A stretch of 64,000 bases of DNA from Tetraselmis striata (taxonomy: Eukaryota; Chlorophyta; Chlorodendrophyceae; Chlorodendrales; Chlorodendraceae), in NCBI GenBank assembly GCA_006384855.1, contig VCJN01000874.1, positions 35,334 through 99,333 on the forward strand. Reading direction: 5' to 3'. Below, piece after piece: positions 2,349 through 63,600 of this stretch. The notes below the pieces were generated by a model. The model did no database searches and had not been told where the DNA came from. It saw only the letters and a program-made list of their open reading frames with translations. Positions within the stretch are counted from its first letter, which is position 1. Every line of letters starts with the position of its first letter. Position numbers and translations under genes: made by a program.

Positions 2349-2540
2349 AAATATCGGTGCACCAGTAAATCCCACCCCCTAAGTACCAATGCACCGGTAA
2401 ATTCCGGTACCTAAATATCGGTGCACCAGTAAATCCCACCACCTAAATACCGATGCACCAGTAAATCCCACCACCTAAATACCAATGCACCAGTAAATCC
2501 CACCACCTCAATATCGGTGCACCAGTAAATTCCACCACCT
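2349..2540. repeat. Minisatellite, six 32-bp units
   Basis: Six consecutive 32-bp units, each like aaatatcggtgcaccagtaa followed by atcccaccacct. Units 3 and 4 match the consensus best; unit 2 (2381-2412) is the most divergent. It follows directly on the transposase relic and may belong to its 3' flank. There are no spacers of changing sequence, so it is not a CRISPR array. Confidence 0.9.
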
Positions 2541-4020
2541 AAGTACCGTCAACAATTAATAACTGCAGCCCTGTGACTAATTGCGAACGGGTGTATCAAA
2601 AGCATCCAACGGCCCATGTTTCAGCCTCCCTGAGGACATCAACCATGATGCCAATGGGGGGAATCCCAGCCGTTAGATCATATCTAAGCTGCCTGGAGTC
2701 CTTGGGTTGTGTTGGTCAGCGTGCGATGGGCTATGGTCATGTTAGTCGAAGTCTCTCCTTGTTGTTAGCAAGATCGCCAGTGTCCCATTCTGCCACCCGA
2801 CTACCACAACCCACCCCAGACTGCCACATTAACTCAGGACACCAACTGTGCCCCACCAAGTGTCCCTTCAGGTCACCTTTGTCGATTGCAAGCGGCGCTG
2901 GCGCGTCTGTGTCGCGGTCGTGGCGATGACAATTGCGCGCCCAAGGTGAGCGATGCGCACATATTTCAAACGCCGGCACCAACCCACTACTCCACCCTGC
3001 CTCTTAGTCGAACTCTAGCACAGGCACTACGCCTCCAACAAGTTACAAATCCGCCTCATTCTCGTTACACGTCGTGAATTTGCTTCTATGACTGCGGCAC
3101 GTGCTAATTTGTCACCGTGTGTGTAGACGAGTTCCGCTGGCTCCGATCATCGCGGTGGCCACCAACGATGCCGATGAACCAGTCGCCGCCCTCACCCCAC
3201 TGGAGGACCGGTGCTCCAACCGACGTGCTTGCCAAGGGCCCCTCCCGTTTCACAGCCTCTCGCACCCGGAACGTAAGGACTTATGTGATCGTGCTGCGGA
3301 GGTGGCGGTGATGCGGCCGGAGCTATTGTACCTTGCGGCGGCCGGGGTAGTCGCCGCGAAGTTCAATATACGGGCTTCCGCCTCCCAACCTACCCCGGCT
3401 CATGCCGGGACGTGCGACATGGACCAGCACGTCGGTTGCGGGGAGGTTGCGCATGACAAGTTATGGGCCCTCTTACTACTACAGCCTATGTCGGACACTA
3501 GTGAGAGTGGTCTGACGCTAGACGACCTCGTAGGAAGTCCGTATGGGCGGGAAGCCCGGACGTAAAACCGAGACCACCGCAGCGAGAAGGGGCCTCGACA
3601 CTCGACAGGTTGTTTGCGCACCTACATCTAAATCGCATACCCGGACGCTGGCTAGCTACCATGAGGCCAGCGACCGCCATGTACGGTCGCCAGGCTACCA
3701 CGACGCCAGCGACTGCCGCGTACCGCAGTTCCCGCCCGAAGAGTTTCTCTGCTCGGCCGACTGGAAAATTCGGGCAACGCTCGTCGACTAGTATGAAGTC
3801 GTATGCGAAGCTCGGCAAACCAGCGCCACGGGGAAGTGGCCACCCGCAACTTTCATCCGCTCGACAGCCGGCGCAGTCACACTCCCTAGAGGACCTACCG
3901 CGATCCACGCCGAGGTCGGGGCATGGCGGGCTGCCTCTCTAGGCTAGCGACTAGCGTTAGCAGCCGAAACCCATGCTTGACGCATCCCCTTGCGACATTG
4001 GGAGGGGATGTTGACACCAG
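2541..4020. other. No convincing gene; one 50-bp direct repeat
   Basis: Open frames exist at 2573-2929, 3101-3565 and 3610-3942, but none shows a recognisable domain, splice pattern or conserved motif. A segment at 3372-3427 (gggcttccgcctcccaac to gacatggaccag) recurs at 4202-4252 in direct orientation with small indels. Confidence 0.5.
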
Positions 4021-19898: not shown

Positions 19899-20006
19899 TT
19901 TACACTTGTGCACTCATTAAGTTTGGGCTGGTTTCGGAGCAGTACATGTACGTATGTATATACATACAATGGAACGTAGGACCTGCGCGGAAAGAGGCGG
20001 GGCTGG

Positions 20007-21513
20007 CGGAGTGCGTTGGGGGGTGCGTAGAGTAGCGTGTTGGTGAGATTCGGGGTGCATCGGACGCCGGATGCCCATCCACCCAGCGTAAAAGACGCGT
20101 ACGTAATATTCACACTATATATATTCACACGCAAATGTGTGAAAACCGGACATTCCGTGCCGGATGGGTGGGAATACGGCGTCCGATGCAGCCAAAACCC
20201 CAGCAACACGCTATTCTATGCACAGCCAATGCACACCGCCAGCACCGCCTCATTCTCTGTCGATTTCGAAAACGCCTTCACATTATCCACCGCTAATTGC
20301 AATTGCCACCGTGTAATGTTGTCACGATGTGCGCACACAACAACACTTACTACCGGTTCCGACGCGGATGGAGGCGGGGCTTGCGGAGTGCGTTGGGGGT
20401 GCGTAGAGTAGCGTGCTGCAAATAATTGGGGTGCATCGGACGCCGGATGCCCATCCACCCGGCGTAAAAGACGCGTAATATTCACACTTTATTAACACAC
20501 AAATGTGTGAAAACCGGACATTCCGTGCCGGATGGGTGGGAATACGGTGTCCGATGCAGCCAAAACCCCAGCAACACGCTATTCTATGCACCGCCAATGC
20601 ACTCCGCCAGCACCGCCTCATTCTTTGTCGATTTCGAAAACGCCTTCACATTATCCACCGCTAATTGCAATTGCCACCGTGTAATATGTTGTCACGATGT
20701 GCGCACACAACAACACTTACTACCGGTTCCGACGCGGATGGAGGCGAGGCTTGCGGAGTGCGTTGGGGGTGCGTAGAGTAGCGTGCTGCAAATAATTGGG
20801 GTGCATCGGACGCCGGATGCCCATCCACCCAGCGTAAAAGACGCGTAATATTCACACTTTATTAACACACAAATGTGTGAAAACCGGACATTCCGTGCCG
20901 GATGGGTGGGAATACGGCGTCCGATGCAGCCAAAACCCCAGGAACACGCTATTCTATGCACCGCCAATGCACTCCGCCAGCACCGCCTCATTCTCTGTCG
21001 ATTTCGAAAACGCCTTCACATTATCCACCGCTAATTGCAATTGCCACCGTGTAATGTTGTCACGATGTGCGCACACAACAACACTTACTATCGGTTCCGA
21101 CGACGCGGATGGAGGCGGGGCTTGCGGAGTGCATTGGGGGTGCGTAGAGTAGCGTGCTGCAAATAATTGGGGTGCATCGGACGCCGGATGCCCATCCACC
21201 CAGCGTAAAAGACGCGTAATATTCACACTATATATTCACACGCAAATGTGTGAAAACCGGACATTCCGTGCCGGATGGGTGGGAATACGGCGTCCGATGC
21301 AGCCAAAACCCCAGCAACACGCTATTCTATGCTCCGCCAATGCACTCCGCCAGCACCGCCTCATTCTCTGTCGATTTCGAAAACGCCTTCACATTATCCA
21401 CCGCTAATAATTGCAATTGCCACCGTGTAATGTTGTCACGATGTGCGCACACAACAACACTTACTACCGGTTCCGACGCGGATGGAGGCGAGGCTTGCGG
21501 AGTGCACTGGCGG
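20007..21513. repeat. Tandem array, four units of 370-376 bp, each an internal fold-back
   Basis: The marker gtgcgtagagtagcgtg occurs at 20023, 20399, 20769 and 21140, with a degraded copy near 21513, giving spacings of 376, 370, 371 and 373 bp. Units are near-identical apart from small indels. Within each unit an arm of about 75 bp (cggagtgcgttggg to tgcatcggacgccggatgcc) is inverted and repeated (gggaatacggcgtccgatgca to gccaatgcactccg). In the first unit the arms are 20007-20084 and 20165-20238. Plus-strand frames of about 90 codons recur in each unit, but periods that are not multiples of three and frame-changing indels argue against coding. Confidence 0.9.
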
Positions 21514-21631
21514 TGCACAGACTAGCGGGAGACTAGATCCATTGTCGCTTATTTACAAGCACGGGCGGTGCTGCCAGACCTGATCGTCTACGGCCGATAT
21601 AATATTCACACTATATTAACATCGGTGCACA

Positions 21632-39857: not shown

Positions 39858-40109
39858 CACATCAAATACGGACGGTGCATGATCACCTGGCTGTGTTTTG
39901 GGTTTCCAACTTGTTCCGATATTGATCATGGTTGGCAGTCGTGGCATAGCGCCGGCATACATCCAAAGGCACGTCCAACAATATATCCGTAAAGTCCTTA
40001 GCGCCATGTACCGTTCTACCGTGCCACCCTATATACGTCTTTTGTGACAATTACGATCATGATGTGCTACAGGTTAGTATGAGAACGATGATGTACGAGT
40101 GCTAGTCGT

Positions 40110-41456
40110 ACACCCCTCCACATAAGTTTGGGGTCCCTTTTCGGCAGTCTCAAGACTTCACAAGTCTAGGGTACCTGAACGTAGGGTATATGAGATGAAA
40201 CCCTGGAATCTCAGAGGGCTTTATAAAACCTGCATGACGAGTGGCTCAAACCGAAACTTAATGACCTTTGACTAGGGAATCACGCTGCACCTGGTGCGTG
40301 GATGGGCGTCGCCTGCAACTGCACCAAAACCGGGGTCGGTATCACGCACACGCCGACGCGCGTGAATAGACAACCAAACGGCGGGATGGCCATGAACGCG
40401 TGAGGAAACACATTGGCGAGGGGCTCGGGTGCATTTGGTTGGGGTGCAGCCGTGTGGGCGGCGGCCAGTGCATGTCGCGTTGCGATACTGGCATGGCATC
40501 AGTGTCGGCCACGCGCAGCAACACCCCCTTGGCTTCAAAACGCTATAACTTCTCAGGGTTTGCTCAGAAAAACTTTTTAAAAATATCACGCGATTCCTCG
40601 TTCAATTCTGCGTCGGGAACACTCTTCCATAACCACAAAATCGATTTTTTGGGTCTCTGGAAAAAATCCCCAAAGATGATCATCCAAGTTGCCCCTCACT
40701 GCCTCATGTGCCCACCCATATCGGGCGCGTGGCTTTGCGCCAAGTGCGTGTCTAAGCCCCATACTCAGTTGCGTGAGAGCGTTATGTATGTGGATGACCA
40801 CGGACCACCAACACTTGGCATGTGCCACCTCCTAGCGATACACACATCTACCAGCCAAAATGCCATTTTCCACAGCAGTTTTCAAGGAATTTCATATTAA
40901 TCAAAATCCACGCCCCTACCGCGCCACCCCGCCCACGAAAGGGTGCAACTGGCATTCCACCACGCGCCCCCATGGTAGAGCATTGCCCTACGCCAAGGGG
41001 GCCATCGAGCGCCTCTCCTACGTGCGTTCGCCACAGAAACAGCAGCATTTTCACCCCAAAACTGCTCCCCACAGTGGCCAACTTGACGCTGGGGTGTCAC
41101 GTCGTGCCTATAGCGACATGCTTTCAGTGGCCTACACGCACGGTGTGTGCAACTTATGCCAAGGGCCGTATCCACCGAGTTTGGTGCGACGAGTGCCGCT
41201 ATTTCCATAGGTTTGGACGGTTGGCGCAACCCACAACTTTCTGGCGCCAACGCACCATGCAATGATTTCGCGTTTTTGAAAGGGCGCCCACAAATGGTCG
41301 TGTTGTCGCGCGGGTGGGTATAAAGCGCACAATAGGCGTTCGCCCGAACTATTCCCACTGTAGTTAGCATGTATGCACATGCAGCCGGCGTGATCCTCGC
41401 CCATGCATGCGCTTTGCGATCGAAAATGCAAAACCCGGACTTATGTGGAGGGGTGT
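40110..41456. mobile_element. Array unit E1: 1,347-bp segment with 18-bp terminal inverted repeats
   Basis: Starts acacccctccacataagt and ends with the exact inverse, acttatgtggaggggtgt. The similarity continues more loosely inward (ggggtcccttttcgg against cgaaaatgcaaaaccc). The left flank (gagtgctagtcgt) is unique DNA. Inside, plus-strand frames of 166 codons (40400-40900) and 147 codons (40822-41265), and a minus-strand frame of 212 codons starting in the spacer (41535-40897), overlap one another. Short Cys pairs can be seen (HCLMCPP, WLCAKC, WCDECRYFH), like zinc-ribbon halves, but no complete domain. A small perfect hairpin, agacttcacaagtct, lies near the left end. Confidence 0.85.
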
Positions 41457-41630
41457 GCGCCGCACCAAGCGCGCTCGACGAGGTCGCAATAAGGCGTCTT
41501 GGGACAGTGAGCCCTTTCGAGCCCGTGGCTCGCATGTGGATGCATCATGGGCATATGCAGCCAGTAGGAGCATTGGGGTGATTCAAACATGCCGCGTCGG
41601 CCGTATATGGCCGAATGACACATGGCCAAC
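41457..41630. repeat. Array spacer S (174 bp)
   Basis: From gcgccgcaccaagcgcgctc to gaatgacacatggccaac. The same spacer lies between every pair of units (42978-43151, 43157-43330, 44678-44851, 46199-46372, 47720-47893, 47899-48072). It is absent from the outer flanks of the array. Confidence 0.9.
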
Positions 41631-42977
41631 ACACCCCTCCACATAAGTTTGGGGTCCCTTTTCGGCAGTCTCAAGACTTCACAAGTCTAGGGTACCTGAA
41701 CGTAGGGTATATGAGATGAAACCCTGGAATCTCAGAGGGCTTTATAAAACCTGCATGACGAGTGGCTCAAACCGAAACTTAATGACCTTTGACTAGGGAA
41801 TCACGCTGCACCTGGTGCGTGGATGGGCGTCGCCTGCAACTGCACCAAAACCGGGGTCGGTATCACGCACACGCCGACGCGCGTGAATAGACAACCAAAC
41901 GGCGGGATGGCCATGAACGCGTGAGGAAACACATTGGCGAGGGGCTCGGGTGCATTTGGTTGGGGTGCAGCCGTGTGGGCGGCGGCCAGTGCATGTCGCG
42001 TTGCGATACTGGCATGGCATCAGTGTCGGCCACGCGCAGCAACACCCCCTTGGCTTCAAAACGCTATAACTTCTCAGGGTTTGCTCAGAAAAACTTTTTA
42101 AAAATATCACGCGATTCCTCGTTCAATTCTGCGTCGGGAACACTCTTCCATAACCACAAAATCGATTTTTTGGGTCTCTGGAAAAAATCCCCAAAGATGA
42201 TCATCCAAGTTGCCCCTCACTGCCTCATGTGCCCACCCATATCGGGCGCGTGGCTTTGCGCCAAGTGCGTGTCTAAGCCCCATACTCAGTTGCGTGAGAG
42301 CGTTATGTATGTGGATGACCACGGACCACCAACACTTGGCATGTGCCACCTCCTAGCGATACACACATCTACCAGCCAAAATGCCATTTTCCACAGCAGT
42401 TTTCAAGGAATTTCATATTAATCAAAATCCACGCCCCTACCGCGCCACCCCGCCCACGAAAGGGTGCAACTGGCATTCCACCACGCGCCCCCATGGTAGA
42501 GCATTGCCCTACGCCAAGGGGGCCATCGAGCGCCTCTCCTACGTGCGTTCGCCACAGAAACAGCAGCATTTTCACCCCAAAACTGCTCCCCACAGTGGCC
42601 AACTTGACGTTGGGGTGTCACGTCGTGCCTATAGCGACATGCTTTCAGTGGCCTACACGCACGGTGTGTGCAACTTATGCCAAGGGCCGTATCCACCGAG
42701 TTTGGTGCGACGAGTGCCGCTATTTCCATAGGTTTGGACGGTTGGCGCAACCCACAACTTTCTGGCGCCAACGCACCATGCAATGATTTCGCGTTTTTGA
42801 AAGGGCGCCCACAAATGGTCGTGTTGTCGCGCGGGTGGGTATAAAGCGCACAATAGGCGTTCGCCCGAACTATTCCCACTGTAGTTAGCATGTATGCACA
42901 TGCAGCCGGCGTGATCCTCGCCCATGCATGCGCTTTGCGATCGAAAATGCAAAACCCGGACTTATGTGGAGGGGTGT
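41631..42977. mobile_element. Array unit E2
   Basis: 1,347 bp, the same ends as E1 and nearly identical; it differs from E1 for example at 42610 (gacgttggg for gacgctggg). Confidence 0.85.
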
Positions 42978-43330
42978 GCGCCGCACCAAGCGCGCTCGAC
43001 GAGGTCGCAATAAGGCGTCTTGGGACAGTGAGCCCTTTCGAGCCCGTGGCTCGCATGTGGATGCATCATGGGCATATGCAGCCAGTAGGAGCATTGGGGT
43101 GATTCAAACATGCCGCGTCGGCCGTATATGGCCGAATGACACATGGCCAACACTGTGCGCCGCACCAAGCGCGCTCGACGAGGTCGCAATAAGGCGTCTT
43201 GGGACAGTGAGCCCTTTCGAGCCCGTGGCTCGCATGTGGATGCATCATGGGCATATGCAGCCAGTAGGAGCATTGGGGTGATTCAAACATGCCGCGTCGG
43301 CCGTATATGGCCGAATGACACATGGCCAAC
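42978..43330. repeat. Duplicated spacer S-actgt-S
   Basis: Two spacers joined by the five bases actgt (43152-43156) where a unit would otherwise sit. Confidence 0.9.
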
Positions 43331-44677
43331 ACACCCCTCCACATAAGTTTGGGGTCCCTTTTCGGCAGTCTCAAGACTTCACAAGTCTAGGGTACCTGAA
43401 CGTAGGGTATATGAGATGAAACCCTGGAATCTCAGAGGGCTTTATAAAACCTGCATGACGAGTGGCTCAAACCGAAACTTAATGACCTTTGACTAGGGAA
43501 TCACGCTGCACCTGGTGCGTGGATGGGCGTCGCCTGCAACTGCACCAAAACCGGGGTCGGTATCACGCACACGCCGACGCGCGTGAATAGACAACCAAAC
43601 GGCGGGATGGCCATGAACGCGTGAGGAAACACATTGGCGAGGGGCTCGGGTGCATTTGGTTGGGGTGCAGCCGTGTGGGCGGCGGCCAGTGCATGTCGCG
43701 TTGCGATACTGGCATGGCATCAGTGTCGGCCACGCGCAGCAACACCCCCTTGGCTTCAAAACGCTATAACTTCTCAGGGTTTGCTCAGAAAAACTTTTTA
43801 AAAATATCACGCGATTCCTCGTTCAATTCTGCGTCGGGAACACTCTTCCATAACCACAAAATCGATTTTTTGGGTCTCCGGAAAAAATCCCCAAAGATGA
43901 TCATCCAAGTTGCCCCTCACTGCCTCATGTGCCCACCCATATCGGGCGCGTGGCTTTGCGCCAAGTGCGTGTCTAAGCCCCATACTCAGTTGCGTGAGAG
44001 CGTTATGTATGTGGATGACCACGGACCACCAACACTTGGCATGTGCCACCTCCTAGCGATACACACATCTACCAGCCAAAATGCCATTTTCCACAGCAGT
44101 TTTCAAGGAATTTCATATTAATCAAAATCCACGCCCCTACCGCGCCACCCCGCCCACGAAAGGGTGCAACTGGCATTCCACCACGCGCCCCCATGGTAGA
44201 GCATTGCCCTACGCCAAGGGGGGCATCGAGCGCCTCTCCTACGTGCGTTCGCCACAGAAACAGCAGCATTTTCACCCCAAAACTGCTCCCCACAGTGGCC
44301 AACTTGACGTTGGGGTGTCACGTCGTGCCTATAGCGACATGCTTTCAGTGGCCTACACGCACGGTGTGTGCAACGTATGCCAAGGGCCGTATCCACCGAG
44401 TTTGGTGCGACGAGTGCCGCTATTTCCATAGGTTTGGACGGTTGGCGCAACCCACAACTTTCTGGCGCCAACGCACCATGCAATGATTTCGCGTTTTTGA
44501 AAGGGCGCCCACAAATGGTCGCGTTGTCGCGCGGGTGGGTATAAAGCGCACAATAGGCGTTCGCCCGAACTATTCCCACTGTAGTTAGCATGTATGCACA
44601 TGCAGCCGGCGTGATCCTCGCCCATGCATGCGCTTTGCGATCGAAAATGCAAAACCCGGACTTATGTGGAGGGGTGT
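43331..44677. mobile_element. Array unit E3
   Basis: 1,347 bp. Shares with E4 the variants ggggggcatcgag and caacgtatgcc, which E1, E2, E5 and E6 lack. Confidence 0.85.
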
Positions 44678-44851
44678 GCGCCGCACCAAGCGCGCTCGAC
44701 GAGGTCGCAATAAGGCGTCTTGGGACAGTGAGCCCTTTCGAGCCCGTGGCTCGCATGTGGATGCATCATGGGCATATGCAGCCAGTAGGAGCATTGGGGT
44801 GATTCAAACATGCCGCGTCGGCCGTATATGGCCGAATGACACATGGCCAAC

Positions 44852-46198
44852 ACACCCCTCCACATAAGTTTGGGGTCCCTTTTCGGCAGTCTCAAGACTT
44901 CACAAGTCTAGGGTACCTGAACGTAGGGTATATGAGATGAAACCCTGGAATCTCAGAGGGCTTTATAAAACCTGCATGACGAGTGGCTCAAACCGAAACT
45001 TAATGACCTTTGACTAGGGAATCACGCTGCACCTGGTGCGTGGATGGGCGTCGCCTGCAACGGCACCAAAACCGGGGTCGGTATCACGCACACGCCGACG
45101 CGCGTGAATAGACAACCAAACGGCGGGATGGCCATGAACGCGTGAGGAAACACATTGGCGAGGGGCTCGGGTGCATTTGGTTGGGGTGCAGCCGTGTGGG
45201 CGGCGGCCAGTGCATGTCGCGTTGCGATACTGGCATGGCATCAGTGTCGGCCACGCGCAGCAACACCCCCTTGGCTTCAAAACGCTATAACTTCTCAGGG
45301 TTTGCTCAGAAAAACTTTTTAAAAATATCACGCGATTCCTCGTTCAATTCTGCGTCGGGAACACTCTTCCATAACCACAAAATCGATTTTTTGGGTCTCC
45401 GGAAAAAATCCCCAAAGATGATCATCCAAGTTGCCCCTCACTGCCTCATGTGCCCACCCATATCGGGCGCGTGGCTTTGCGCCAAGTGCGTGTCTAAGCC
45501 CCATACTCAGTTGCGTGAGAGCGTTATGTATGTGGATGACCACGGACCACCAACACTTGGCATGTGCCACCTCCTAGCGATACACACATCTACCAGCCAA
45601 AATGCCATTTTCCACAGCAGTTTTCAAGGAATTTCATATTAATCAAAATCCACGCCCCTACCGCGCCACCCCGCCCACGAAAGGGTGCAACTGGCATTCC
45701 ACCACGCGCCCCCATGGTAGAGCATTGCCCTACGCCAAGGGGGGCATCGAGCGCCTCTCCTACGTGCGTTCGCCACAGAAACAGCAGCATTTTCACCCCA
45801 AAACTGCTCCCCACAGTGGCCAACTTGACGTTGGGGTGTCACGTCGTGCCTATAGCGACATGCTTTCAGTGGCCTACACGCACGGTGTGTGCAACGTATG
45901 CCAAGGGCCGTATCCACCGAGTTTGGTGCGACGAGTGCCGCTATTTCCATAGGTTTGGACGGTTGGCGCAACCCACAACTTTCTGGCGCCAACGCACCAT
46001 GCAATGATTTCGCGTTTTTGAAAGGGCGCCCACAAATGGTCGCGTTGTCGCGCGGGTGGGTATAAAGCGCACAATAGGCGTTCGCCCGAACTATTCCCAC
46101 TGTAGTTAGCATGTATGCACATGCAGCCGGCGTGATCCTCGCCCATGCATGCGCTTTGCGATCGAAAATGCAAAACCCGGACTTATGTGGAGGGGTGT
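44852..46198. mobile_element. Array unit E4
   Basis: 1,347 bp. Shares caacggcacc (near 45060) with E5, and the E3 variants noted above. Confidence 0.85.
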
Positions 46199-46372
46199 GC
46201 GCCGCACCAAGCGCGCTCGACGAGGTCGCAATAAGGCGTCTTGGGACAGTGAGCCCTTTCGAGCCCGTGGCTCGCATGTGGATGCATCATGGGCATATGC
46301 AGCCAGTAGGAGCATTGGGGTGATTCAAACATGCCGCGTCGGCCGTATATGGCCGAATGACACATGGCCAAC

Positions 46373-47719
46373 ACACCCCTCCACATAAGTTTGGGGTCCC
46401 TTTTCGGCAGTCTCAAGACTTCACAAGTCTAGGGTACCTGAACGTAGGGTATATGAGATGAAACCCTGGAATCTCAGAGGGCTTTATAAAACCTGCATGA
46501 CGAGTGGCTCAAACCGAAACTTAATGACCTTTGACTAGGGAATCACGCTGCACCTGGTGCGTGGATGGGCGTCGCCTGCAACGGCACCAAAACCGGGGTC
46601 GGTATCACGCACACGCCGACGCGCGTGAATAGACAACCAAACGGCGGGATGGCCATGAACGCGTGAGGAAACACATTGGCGAGGGGCTCGGGTGCATTTG
46701 GTTGGGGTGCAGCCGTGTGGGCGGCGGCCAGTGCATGTCGCGTTGCGATACTGGCATGGCATCAGTGTCGGCCACGCGCAGCAACACCCCCTTGGCTTCA
46801 AAACGCTATAACTTCTCAGGGTTTGCTCAGAAAAACTTTTTAAAAATATCACGCGATTCCTCGTTCAATTCTGCGTCGGGAACACTCTTCCATAACCACA
46901 AAATCGATTTTTTGGGTCTCCGGAAAAAATCCCCAAAGATGATCATCCAAGTTGCCCCTCACTGCCTCATGTGCCCACCCATATCGGGCGCGTGGCTTTG
47001 CGCCAAGTGCGTGTCTAAGCCCCATACTCAGTTGCGTGAGAGCGTTATGTATGTGGATGACCACGGACCACCAACACTTGGCATGTGCCACCTCCTAGCG
47101 ATACACACATCTACCAGCCAAAATGCCATTTTCCACAGCAGTTTTCAAGGAATTTCATATTAATCAAAATCCACGCCCCTACCGCGCCACCCCGCCCACG
47201 AAAGGGTGCAACTGGCATTCCACCACGCGCCCCCATGGTAGAGCATTGCCCTACGCCAAGGGGGCCATCGAGCGCCTCTCCTACGTGCGTTCGCCACAGA
47301 AACAGCAGCATTTTCACCCCAAAACTGCTCCCCACAGTGGCCAACTTGACGTTGGGGTGTCACGTCGTGCCTATAGCGACATGCTTTCAGTGGCCTACAC
47401 GCACGGTGTGTGCAACTTATGCCAAGGGCCGTATCCACCGAGTTTGGTGCGACGAGTGCCGCTATTTCCATAGGTTTGGACGGTTGGCGCAACCCACAAC
47501 TTTCTGGCGCCAACGCACCATGCAATGATTTCGCGTTTTTGAAAGGGCGCCCACAAATGGTCGCGTTGTCGCGCGGGTGGGTATAAAGCGCACAATAGGC
47601 GTTCGCCCGAACTATTCCCACTGTAGTTAGCATGTATGCACATGCAGCCGGCGTGATCCTCGCCCATGCATGCGCTTTGCGATCGAAAATGCAAAACCCG
47701 GACTTATGTGGAGGGGTGT
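46373..47719. mobile_element. Array unit E5
   Basis: 1,347 bp. Carries the caacggcacc variant but the E1-like gggggccatcgag. Confidence 0.85.
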
Positions 47720-48072
47720 GCGCCGCACCAAGCGCGCTCGACGAGGTCGCAATAAGGCGTCTTGGGACAGTGAGCCCTTTCGAGCCCGTGGCTCGCATGT
47801 GGATGCATCATGGGTATATGCAGCCAGTAGGAGCATTGGGGTGATTCAAACATGCCGCGTCGGCCGTATATGGCCGAATGACATATGGCCAACACAGTGC
47901 GCCGCACCAAGCGCGCTCGACGAGGTCGCAATAAGGCGTCTTGGGACAGTGAGCCCTTTCGAGCCCGTGGCTCGCATGTGGATGCATCATGGGCATATGC
48001 AGCCAGTAGGAGCATTGGGGTGATTCAAACATGCCGCGTCGGCCGTATATGGCCGAATGACATATGGCCAAC
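47720..48072. repeat. Duplicated spacer S-acagt-S
   Basis: As at 42978-43330, but the junction is acagt (47894-47898), the reverse complement of actgt at its centre base. Both spacers here share catatggcc in place of catggcc. Confidence 0.9.
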
Positions 48073-49419
48073 ACACCCCTGCACATAAGTTTGGGGTCCC
48101 TTTTCGGCAGTCTCAAGACTTCACAAGTCTAGGGTACCTGAACGTAGGGTATATGAGATGAAACCCTGGAATCTCAGAGGGCTTTATTAAACCTGCATGA
48201 CGAGTGGCTCAAACCGAAACTTAATGACCTTTGACTAGGGAATCACGCTGCACCTGGTGCGTGGATGGGCGTCGCCTGCAACTGCACCAAAACCGGGGTC
48301 GGTATCACGCACACGCCGACGCGCGTGAATAGACAACCAAACGGCGGGATGGCCATGAACGCGTGAGGAAACACATTGGCGAGGGGCTCGGGTGCATTTG
48401 GTTGGGGTGCAGCCGTGTGGGCGGCGGCCAGTGCATGTCGCGTTGCGATACTGGCATGGCATCAGTGTCGGCCACGCGCAGCAACACCCCCTTGGCTTCA
48501 AAACGCTATAACTTCTCAGGGTTTGCTCAGAAAAACTTTTTAAAAATATCACGCGATTCCTCGTTCAATTCTGCGTCGGGAACACTCTTTCATAACCACA
48601 AAATCGATTTTTTGGGTCTCCGGGGAAAATCCCCAAAGATGATCATCCAAGTTGCCCCTCACTGCCTCATGTGCCCACCCATATCGGGCGCGTGGCTTTG
48701 CGCCAAGTGCGTGTCTAAGCCCCATACTCAGTTGCGCGAGAGCGTTATGAATGTGGATGACCACGGACCACCAACACTTGGCATGTGCCACCTCCTAGCG
48801 ATACACACATCTACCAGCCAAAATGCCATTTTCCACAGCATTTTTCAAGGAATTTCATATTAATCAAAATCCACGCCCCTACCGCGCCACCCCGCCCACG
48901 AAAGGGTGCAACTGGCATTCCACCACGCGCCCCCATGGTAGAGCATTGCCCTACGCCAAGGGGGCCATCGAGCGCCTCTCCTACGTGCGTTCGCCACAGA
49001 AACAGCAGCATTTTCACCCCAAAACTGCTCCCCACAGTGGCCAACTTGACGTTGGGGTGTCACGTCGTGCCTATAGCGACATGCTTTCAGTGGCCTACAC
49101 GCACGGTGTGTGCAACTTATGCCAAGGGCCGTATCCACCGAGTTTGGTGCGACGAGTGCCGCTATTTCCATAGGTTTGGACGGTTGGCGCAACCCACAAC
49201 TTTCTGGCGCCAACGCACCATGCAATGATTTCGCGTTTTTGAAAGGGCGCCCACAAATGGTCGTGTTGTCGCGCGGGTGGGTATAAAGCGCACAATAGGC
49301 GTTCGCCCGAACTATTCCCACTGTAGTTAGCATGTATGCACATGCAGCCGGCGTGATCCTCGCCCATGCATGCGCTTTGCGATCGAAAATGCAAAACCCG
49401 GACTTATGTGGAGGGGTGT
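48073..49419. mobile_element. Array unit E6 (right edge of the array)
   Basis: 1,347 bp and the most divergent copy: one mismatch in the left inverted repeat (cctgcac), ggggaaaatcc near 48622 and gttatgaatgtgg near 48745. It ends exactly at the right inverted repeat, followed by unique DNA (atattgatccgttattc). Confidence 0.85.
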
Positions 49420-49492
49420 ATATTGATCCGTTATTCTCCGTCAGCACTGCCATCAGTCTAAACGCGACGACAGCGACACCGTCACTACCCGT

Positions 49493-60600: not shown

Positions 60601-63600
60601 ATTTTGTAAGAAAACTGACGGATGCTTCTCTGTCGTGTTATTGCGAATCGATTCCAGAAAGAACTGATTACATTTTTTGAGTTCGTAAAGTTCTGTGATG
60701 ATGGATTACTTCTGTTACATTTTATTTTCGTTGGGTCATCCTTAATGTCGGTCGACGATGATATAACAAATAAGCGGCTACCAATTGCCTTTTAACTGCT
60801 TACGTGGCAAATTCTCGATTATTCATCGTCACTTTTACACGTCTTGAATTCTACCAGCTGTGTGCGCGTTTTCGATACGTGTAGTAATTGAAACACGGGA
60901 TGCGCTAAACGTACGGGTGGGAAATAGATGTTATGGCTCGACGTCGCCGCCCAGAACACAAAAGGATTGCCAGTGGCGCGATAGTATGATAAGGGTCCTT
61001 GTAGGCCTGAGTCGGCGCCCGTATGTATGTATCCAAACAAGCCCAATAAAAAACAATCTCCCCTGTCCCCGCCCCCGTCAGTGTGTACCGCCGCCCGCCC
61101 TGCCTCGCTCTCTCCGCCGGCCTCCCTCGCACCCTTCTAATGCCCTCGTTCCTACGGGCGTCGCTGCGGCTAGAAAAGATGCTGCAGATGAGAAGCCCTA
61201 CCCTGACCGCCAGAGGTCAGCTGTCGACGAGCCCATAGCGGCACTAAAGCAAATGTTCTGATAGGTTACGGGGAAGCCCAACTCGTCACTTAATAGGAGC
61301 GGTCATACAGGTGTAAGTGTTGTATATTTTCATTAAGTGTTGTGTGTGATATATTTATACATACATACATACATATGTTTTTTGTACATACATATATATA
61401 TACGTGTAACATATATGTATGTTATGCACATATATATACACACACATTTATACATTTATATCCATGTCTATATCTATGTGTATGTGTACATACATATATA
61501 TACATATATATATGCATATATATATGCATATATATGTGTGTGTATATATATACATATTGTTTTGGTTTCACACCCTCATGATGAAGCAACCTGGGATTCC
61601 CTTACCCGTTGTCTTGCGTGTGCTGGCTGACTGCCCCCTCCCTCCCCCCCCCGCCCGACCCGCGGCGTCTGGTTGATGGCTGGCAGGTCTGCATGCGCTG
61701 CATCCGGAGCTGGCGCTGCTGGCGTCGCCGGTGGGCCCGGACGCGGTAGTGGGGCTGCCGGCGGTGCGGCCGGAGCGGTGGGGGCAGCCCTGCGCGGTGT
61801 GCGGCTCCACCGCGGGCGCGGTCGTCCCCTGCGCCACGCCCGGCTGCCCCGTGGGCGCGCACCCGCTGTGCGCGCGCCGCGGCGGGCTGCCGCTGAGCGT
61901 GCACAGCGTGGGCGGGCAGCAGGTGTACGGCCTGCACTGCGCGCTGCACGCCGCCGGCGCCGCGAGGGGGGAGGGGTTCCCGCTGGAGGTGCTGCCCACC
62001 GGCGGCGGCGGGCAGCCCAAGAAGCACAAGGACAAGGTGCGCCCCCTTGTTGACTTTGGGAGGGGTGACCCCAAGAGAGGCGCGGCCCGGAATCTTTAGG
62101 GTTTGTGATTTTGTTAGGGTAATACCATTGTGAAAATTGTCACTTTGGAGTTCTGATCTTAAGGGGTATTCTGTTTGGGTGTTGAATGCTAGACCCTAAA
62201 AATGAACCAAATCATGAATATCTGAAACCCTAAACCCTAGACTACGAATGTCCTACGTACGTCAGGAAATGTGTCATGCTGAGTTGGGCGCGCGCCGCAC
62301 GCCCCTTCCTCAGGCCAAGGAGTCCAAGGCGAAGGAGAAGGAGGGCAAGCCGAAGAAGGACGCGCCGCCGAGCAAGGCGAAGGAGGCCAAGGCGGAGGCC
62401 AAGGCGAAGGCCAGGGCGGAGGCCAAGGCGGAGGCCAAGGCGGAGGCGGCGCGCGTGGCGGCGCTGGCGGAGCAGCTGGACACGCTGGCGCGCACGCGGC
62501 TGGAGATGGAGCAGCTGCGCCTGCTGTGCGAGCGCGTGCGTCGTCGGGAGCGGCTGAAGCGGGAAGGCACCCGGCTGCTGCGCAACCTGGCGGCGGCGCT
62601 GCGGGAGGGCGGCGGCGGCGCGGGAGGTGAGACCTAGCGCCGGTTTGGGTGAAGGGTTAGTTAGGGTATGTGTGATGGCTAGAAGCTAGGGTATTTATTT
62701 GAGATGTTGTGTTATTTAGGGTTTTTGGTGTTTGCTGTATCGAAACTCTGAACTTAAACATGTACTTAGAACCATTCGGGTTTTGGATTTGTATTAGGTA
62801 TTAGGGTTTTTGGTGATGTTCATGTGTAGTACACAGGGTCTGGACGGAGCATGTTGTGTGTTAGGGCTTGCGAGTTTAGTTGCTGGGTGTATAACATTTA
62901 ACCCACGCTTATAACCATTCCGATTTGGGGTTAAGGCTTTGGACTATGATTTAGGTTTTGGGTCTGTTTTATGTCTAGTTGTTAGGGTCTGGAATGTAGG
63001 AAGCTGTGAGTTCAGGGTTTAGGGTGTATGCTGGGCTGAAAACCTAGAATTTGATCTGAATTCCGAACCATTCGGCTTATGAGTGTGCTCGGTCCTTTTT
63101 ACTTAGGGGGTTGAGCTGTTCGATATGTTGAAATCCTGATTCTGTCTGAACCTAGAAATGTACATAGTCATGGTACGTTTAGATGTGCATTATCGATTGT
63201 ATGCGCGCTGTGACACTAGGGTTTGATGGATGTGTTGAAAACCTAACATATATGCAGTAACACCCCGTCCTCTTGGGTGGGTCAGACCCTCAGAGTGACC
63301 TTAATCACGTGCCCCCGGTTGTTTGTGTGTGCCAAGGCGGCGTGCCATCACCGGAGGACGCGCTGGCCGCGCTGGCCGCGCCCTTCCCGGAGGCCCCGTC
63401 CCCGCCGGCCGGCCCCAAGCGCGCGCGCGCCGCGTCTCCCGACGCCCGGGGCGGCGGCGACACCAAGCGGCCGCGCCCGAGCAGCCGGCGCGCGGGCGGG
63501 CTGCCCCCCGAGGCGCCGGCCGTCAAGGTGGACCGCGAGTGCATGATGACGGCAGGGCAGGCGGAGGCCGTCAACGACAAGCTTCCTAAAGGCTTCCTCT

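Follow-up and report, generated by a model that had tools for sequence, protein, structure and literature searches.

A tandem array in Tetraselmis striata as a probable insertion of a composite-like Tc1/mariner transposon with long terminal direct repeats

Introduction

KolobokP transposons have the layout (LTDR-INT)n-LTDR, in which long terminal direct repeats (LTDRs) alternate with internal regions (INT), and solo LTDRs and INT-INT junctions occur as well (Kojima and Bao, 2022, PMC9587614). That article sets KolobokP apart from all other DNA transposons (section 3) and tentatively ascribes its multimers to its own nuclease (section 13). Here we report an element of Tetraselmis striata which is the Tc1/mariner counterpart of this layout, earlier described for a different superfamily. 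The element forms a block of repeated units, E, and spacers, S, within a window of 64,000 nucleotides (GCA_006384855.1, contig VCJN01000874.1, positions 35,334 to 99,333 of the forward strand), which is part of contig C690 in a 224-Mb assembly of 2,903 contigs. A preliminary description, made from the sequence of the window, knew of no described element with such an arrangement; KolobokP is one.

The data showed that a transposon insertion, and not satellite DNA, makes up the block. E serves as its long terminal direct repeat, with no coding function seen in the tests made, and S as its internal region. Very probably, the block is a single insertion of a non-autonomous, composite-like Tc1/mariner transposon, (E-S)n-E, with the transposase acting in trans and n set by unequal recombination.

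Structure of the array

First, the order of the parts was examined. The preliminary description had read the block as E-S-E-S-S-E-S-E-S-E-S-S-E with its outer limits at E termini, and this order proved exact when the terminal 18-mer was searched and the units and spacers were compared. The 18-mer had 12 copies in the array (11 exact and one with one mismatch), each where that description had placed it; the chance expectation was 0.09, and none of 100 shuffles reached 12 copies. The six 1,347-bp E units show pairwise differences of 1-12 bases, and the seven 174-bp spacers differ from each other at 0-2 positions. The limits of the units had to be corrected, because the outermost A and T belong to the flanking TA. 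E is therefore 1,345 bp long, with CACCCC at its 5' end and GGGGTG at its 3' end. In E1 the left and right ends agree for 18 bp and diverge beyond; the terminal inverted repeats (TIRs) of E are 17 bp, a feature expected of Tc1/mariner elements.

The transposon spans 40111 to 49418, with TA on either side (40109-40110 and 49419-49420, no strand) as the two copies of the target-site duplication. All E and S copies lie on the plus strand. The LTDRs, each with its own TIRs, are E1 (40111-41455), E2 (41632-42976), E3 (43332-44676), E4 (44853-46197), E5 (46374-47718) and E6 (48074-49418); E6 differs from E1-E5 at 9-12 bases, and its left TIR carries one mismatch. The inner flanks of E are CA/TG, and the spacers, taken from TG to CA, occupy 41456-41631, 42977-43152, 43156-43331, 44677-44852, 46198-46373, 47719-47894 and 47898-48073. 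Both S-S junctions hold three additional bases that had been overlooked, CTG at 43153-43155 and CAG at 47895-47897 (no strand), each a probable excision footprint of a lost E.

Insertions of E across the assembly

The assembly was searched with E (1,377 first-look candidates, 40 scored), and 20 stretches on 14 contigs were fetched and annotated with E and S. Solo E and further E-S arrays, both of which the preliminary description had proposed to look for, were found. A solo E was present in C1942 and an inverted one in C976; C1362 and C225 carried E-S-E, C1146 carried E-S-S-S-E, and C2804 carried E-S-E-S-S-E-S-E in an array of 6.1 kb. There were five E units in C2705, where the stretch additionally opens with an E fragment cut at the contig end, and six in the window. 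The unit numbers in C612, C1481, C39, C976, C729 and C1562 are lower bounds, because these six arrays reach contig ends. The fetched stretch cut the C1644 array on both sides and the C729 array on the left.

TA was found on both sides in all nine insertions fetched with both ends, which had 1 to 6 E units and comprised eight E-family insertions and the E'-T-E' element of C221 described below. When TIRs with at most two mismatches were counted in the loci fetched to that point, more diverged ends being left out, the flank was TA at 28 of 28 outer ends and CA at 126 of 126 inner ends (125 by rule and one in C976 with a 1-base insertion). Genome-wide, exact left ends were flanked by TA in 173 cases, by CA in 186, and by a purine as the first flank base in three, in a search that covered these three kinds of flank. 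Exact right outer ends numbered 408 with a 22-base pattern, against 173 left ones with a 28-base pattern; pattern length may explain part of this imbalance, and further subfamilies with other left ends may account for the rest. Right outer E ends also lay at 61097, 68352 and 75604 of C594, in steps of about 7.25 kb, which may reflect tandem duplication of a larger segment with an E inside it.

Satellite arrays end at arbitrary points of their period. Here the edges lay at E termini with TA in all nine complete insertions and none was broken inside E, as the preliminary description had expected of something other than a simple satellite; arrays leaving their contig or fetched stretch are not judgeable in this respect. 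A more elaborate version, in which S is an ordinary satellite hit many times at the same site by a transposon E, has a negligible probability. It could explain the S-S runs with a 179-bp period, but no complete fetched insertion has S beyond E. Exact genome matches of the first 27 bases of S were preceded by T with a single exception, a 1-base insertion within an array, although a preceding T alone is no proof of an adjoining E or S. Moreover, outer E ends have TA while inner ends have CA, and the spacer of the autonomous family is a transposase gene. Because S is never outside E in the complete insertions sampled and the edges are TA/CA specific, a satellite with a transposon inside it was rejected. 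Misassembly of repeats, to which the six arrays running to contig ends might point, is very improbable, for distinct variants follow one another in a definite order along the units, and the complete arrays, bordered by TA left and right, lie in differing flanking DNA.

To look for empty sites, the left and right flanks were joined for five of these nine insertions and used as queries, and 40 of 2,398 candidates were scored. The C2804 array had an empty counterpart in C1084, with a single TA and with 60/60 identical bases on the left and 27/27 on the right. The other 39 scored rows all fell on the C221 flanks.

Related elements and the transposase

A DDE_3 search of the assembly gave 97 matches, one set of which recurred with a spacing of about 2,680 bp; the contigs of this set also carry the same left TIR. 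The fetched loci of this set showed E'-T-E'-T-E'. E' is 1,347 bp long and collinear with E, with 757 of 1,333 aligned bases identical; when the bases were shuffled ten times, the identical fraction was 0.40-0.44. In place of S stands T, which is 1,333 bp long and holds an open frame of 385 amino acids (aa) that matched HTH_Tnp_Tc3_2 (2.1e-12) and DDE_3 (1.5e-7) in Pfam. The frame aligned to the catalytic domain of Sleeping Beauty (1.9e-18), the sole PDB sequence matched, and 35 residues separate its second D from the E by hand count. The D, D and E aligned with Sleeping Beauty are presumably its catalytic residues. T encodes a Tc1-like transposase, which is predicted to move the element.

One E'-T-E' monomer, at C221:348337-352363, was complete; it is 4,027 bp long and bordered by TA left and right. 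Nine left ends lay in C211 in steps of 2,680-2,681 bp. In the transposase search 107 of 202 candidates were scored. Among the 113 matches listed, 34, on 12 contigs, were full-length without stops. On C2385, C2605, C2441, C554 and C665, intact long DDE_3 frames unlike the E'-T family were clustered; these genes may belong to other transposon families or to bacterial contigs within the assembly. Three stretches of viral contigs fitted a pattern, and none encoded a relative.

S may be a deletion remnant of T, a relationship that is suggestive only: their alignment score was reached by 7 of 500 order-1 Markov resamplings of S. E was also considered as a coding unit and rejected, since the frames tested had no Pfam match and the frames common to E and E' were short (up to 65 aa, down to E=6.8e-10), as expected from the DNA similarity.

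The element resembles KolobokP in its LTDR-INT-LTDR structure, with short TIRs inside each LTDR and the transposase in INT. Both also form multimers and solo LTDRs, and both have INT-INT junctions that are slightly altered where the two INT meet. However, KolobokP has a Kolobok transposase and a target-site duplication of 3-5 bp, whereas Tc3_2 HTH and DDE_3 domains and TA were found here. KolobokP also has a His-Me finger nuclease gene. Here there are CWG scars, and no Pfam match, to such a nuclease or otherwise, was obtained in seven open reading frames (ORFs) of the window array, in a second T frame or in 8 of 17 E' frames (counted from stop to stop, at least 45 aa and overlapping E', a definition that does not exclude shorter or spliced genes). 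Because the superfamily, duplication and nuclease features fail, the element is not a member of KolobokP, though it works like it.

Tc1/mariner elements such as Sleeping Beauty, Tc1 and Tc3 share with the present one the TA duplication, the TIRs and a DDE transposase with HTH_Tnp_Tc3_2 and DDE_3. Their gene lies between one pair of TIRs, whereas here it lies between two complete TIR-bounded units, and direct repeats of 1.35 kb, arrays and an inner CA flank are present. As in the bacterial composite transposons treated in PMC9587614, an internal segment is carried by two transposable end units, but in those the transposase is in the end units and here it is in the internal segment. Long terminal repeat (LTR) retrotransposons and arrays of terminal-repeat retrotransposons in miniature (TRIMs), as covered there, likewise have direct terminal repeats, solo repeats and tandem arrays sharing repeats; the present element differs by its TIRs, its transposase and its TA duplication. 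The two T frames scanned, one being the transposase and the other without any Pfam match, showed no reverse transcriptase. A Tc1/mariner element with long terminal direct repeats was not found in the accessible part of the open literature searched, a scope that leaves Repbase, subscription journals and other preprints outside.

Footprints at the spacer junctions

Genome-wide, 131 S-S junctions fell within the range of arms and gap set by the search pattern. Among the 100 listed, 98 had CWG, one CATG and one CCTG, and the 12 in the fetched loci had CTG, CAG or CCTG. T-T junctions with CTG occurred three times in C704. The Sleeping Beauty footprint is given as C(A/T)GTA (PMC3878927), and the scars described here resemble it as C(A/T)G between CA and TG. 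We infer that CATG represents two filled-in 2-base overhangs and CWG such overhangs paired at one mismatched base. To judge from these scars, the loss of an inner E seems possible despite its CA flank. Regular periods of 1,877 bp (C404 and C702) and 3,758 bp (C83) fit, by length alone, amplification in place of scarred units.

Variation in unit number

Of 100 listed left outer ends, 40 sit on contigs covered by listed right ends. Eleven of these paired with a right end at spans near whole units (seven solo, two dimers and two trimers), and for the remaining 29 the right ends listed included no exact match as near as 40 kb. The 67 full units differed by a median of 4 bases within an array (220 pairs) and 6 between arrays (1,991 pairs). 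In five of the 12 multi-unit arrays (C1146, C1362, C225, C2804 and C976), variants private to the array were common to all its units. The two E of C1146 are identical, with five array-private variants, and none of the other 38 copies scored among the 1,377 candidates was as close as this pair. The window array mixes E haplotypes that recur in other arrays. Local unequal recombination together with exchange between arrays explains both the private variants and the mixed haplotypes.

These data bear on a further possibility, that an entire multi-unit array was copied and moved unchanged, without later amplification at each locus. It has in its favour the same unit haplotypes in C612, C690 and C729, the TA on both sides of complete arrays, and the seven of 12 multi-unit arrays, the window's included, that lack private variants common to all units, a result that also weighs against the reading we prefer. 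The five arrays with such variants speak against an unchanged move, and the regular periods of scarred units point to amplification in place. We therefore regard movement without local amplification as rather unlikely.

Proposed mechanism

In the reading we prefer, an insertion of (E-S)n-E with n adjusted by unequal recombination, the transposase for E would be supplied in trans by the related E'-T-E' elements. It would act on the two outermost, TA-flanked termini, and the entire E(SE)n would then move as one unit. Unequal recombination between E copies would raise or lower n and could leave a solo E, with E kept at both ends. Because E would be the recombining repeat, the product starts and finishes with E, and recognition of the termini would therefore be needed for insertion only. 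The preliminary description had supposed that the termini were recognised when the block was amplified or inserted; for insertion this agrees with TA on both sides in all nine cases and with the one clean empty site, and for amplification it is unnecessary. At times the transposase might excise a single inner E, leaving the S-CWG-S scar. The CA-flanked inner ends may be poorer substrates than TA-flanked ones, which would help to hold the composite together. Such a brake on the inner ends is plausible but unproven, and the scars suggest that it is not absolute.

The circular E-S form that had been offered as an example was neither shown nor needed, as recombination between direct repeats yields E(SE)n wherever E breaks. 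A circle could act in another way: once excised, an E-S (or E'-T) circle could recombine homologously with a solo E already in place and reinsert there, adding one unit per event. Solo E insertions exist, exchange with foreign circles could give the haplotype mix of the window array, and circles are among the models in the KolobokP paper (PMC9587614). All of this is accounted for by unequal exchange and ectopic conversion as well, the junction of a circle is indistinguishable from an array in an assembly, and the two identical E of C1146, with five variants absent from other sampled arrays, fit local homogenisation better. We consider growth through circles unlikely.

Several other points tell against the preferred insertion model. 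E, the presumed target of the E' transposase, is only 57% identical to E'. The evidence for transposition consists of the scars and the empty site, with no movement observed, and many of the scars are probably copies of each other, not independent events. The empty site of the window array was not found, the flanks of C690, C2705 and C1146 giving no row among the 40 of 2,398 candidates scored. The empty-site copies for C221 are diverged repeats whose junction bases differ in the three compared; they agree with an insertion there but are not clean examples. Mariner depends critically on the T adjoining the 3' end, whereas the A after it has little weight (PMC4344528, section 3). The inner ends may accordingly be nearly normal, because the inner flank on that strand is TG, with the T retained.

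The same layout, multimers and scars without a detected nuclease suggest that a nuclease is not required, and a KolobokP-like layout in Tc1/mariner suggests that this layout arose at least twice. With TA outside and CA inside, the cohesion of such a composite would have a simple explanation that can be tested. The element also illustrates how cut-and-paste transposons can give rise to satellite-like arrays that keep exact ends.

Older, degraded relatives

Five degraded copies were fetched, from C380, C889, C1728, C2467 and C52. In C380 (57% aa identity) a TA-flanked outer terminus and a CA-flanked inner terminus with three mismatches enclose an E-like stretch and are separated by about 1.38 kb. 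In C889 (47% aa) a CA-flanked inner terminus separates the adjoining gene from an E-like stretch. In C1728 (39-40% aa) the gene stands between two copies of a 52-nt direct repeat (94%), and there is an outer TA; its inner edges are TG on one side, in our reading, and AA on the other. Within C1728:239300-242900 (L046), the right end repeat, whose TIR-like ends have CACATAAGTCTTTGCA in common, seems much shorter at about 320 bp. Recognisable termini were not found in the fetched stretches of C2467 and C52; in C52 an E-like stretch lies beside the transposase gene. In C2467 (L042, positions 2369-3592), tandem repeats of about 240 bp lie beside a transposase remnant. Traces of the layout in three of the five copies suggest that it predates the present families.

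It is possible, though doubtful, that these elements form a separate, long-lived Tc1/mariner lineage whose layout evolved independently of Kolobok. This layout would be kept by a mark read by the transposase, TA outside (renewed at each insertion) and CA inside, and the arrays would multiply transposase genes without a dedicated nuclease.

Other features of the window

An Rfam scan of the window gave no match at the gathering score, and ten other long ORFs of the window had no Pfam match. At 19986-21527 the window carries a satellite-like array with a period of about 370 bp, 4.1 copies and 94% matches.

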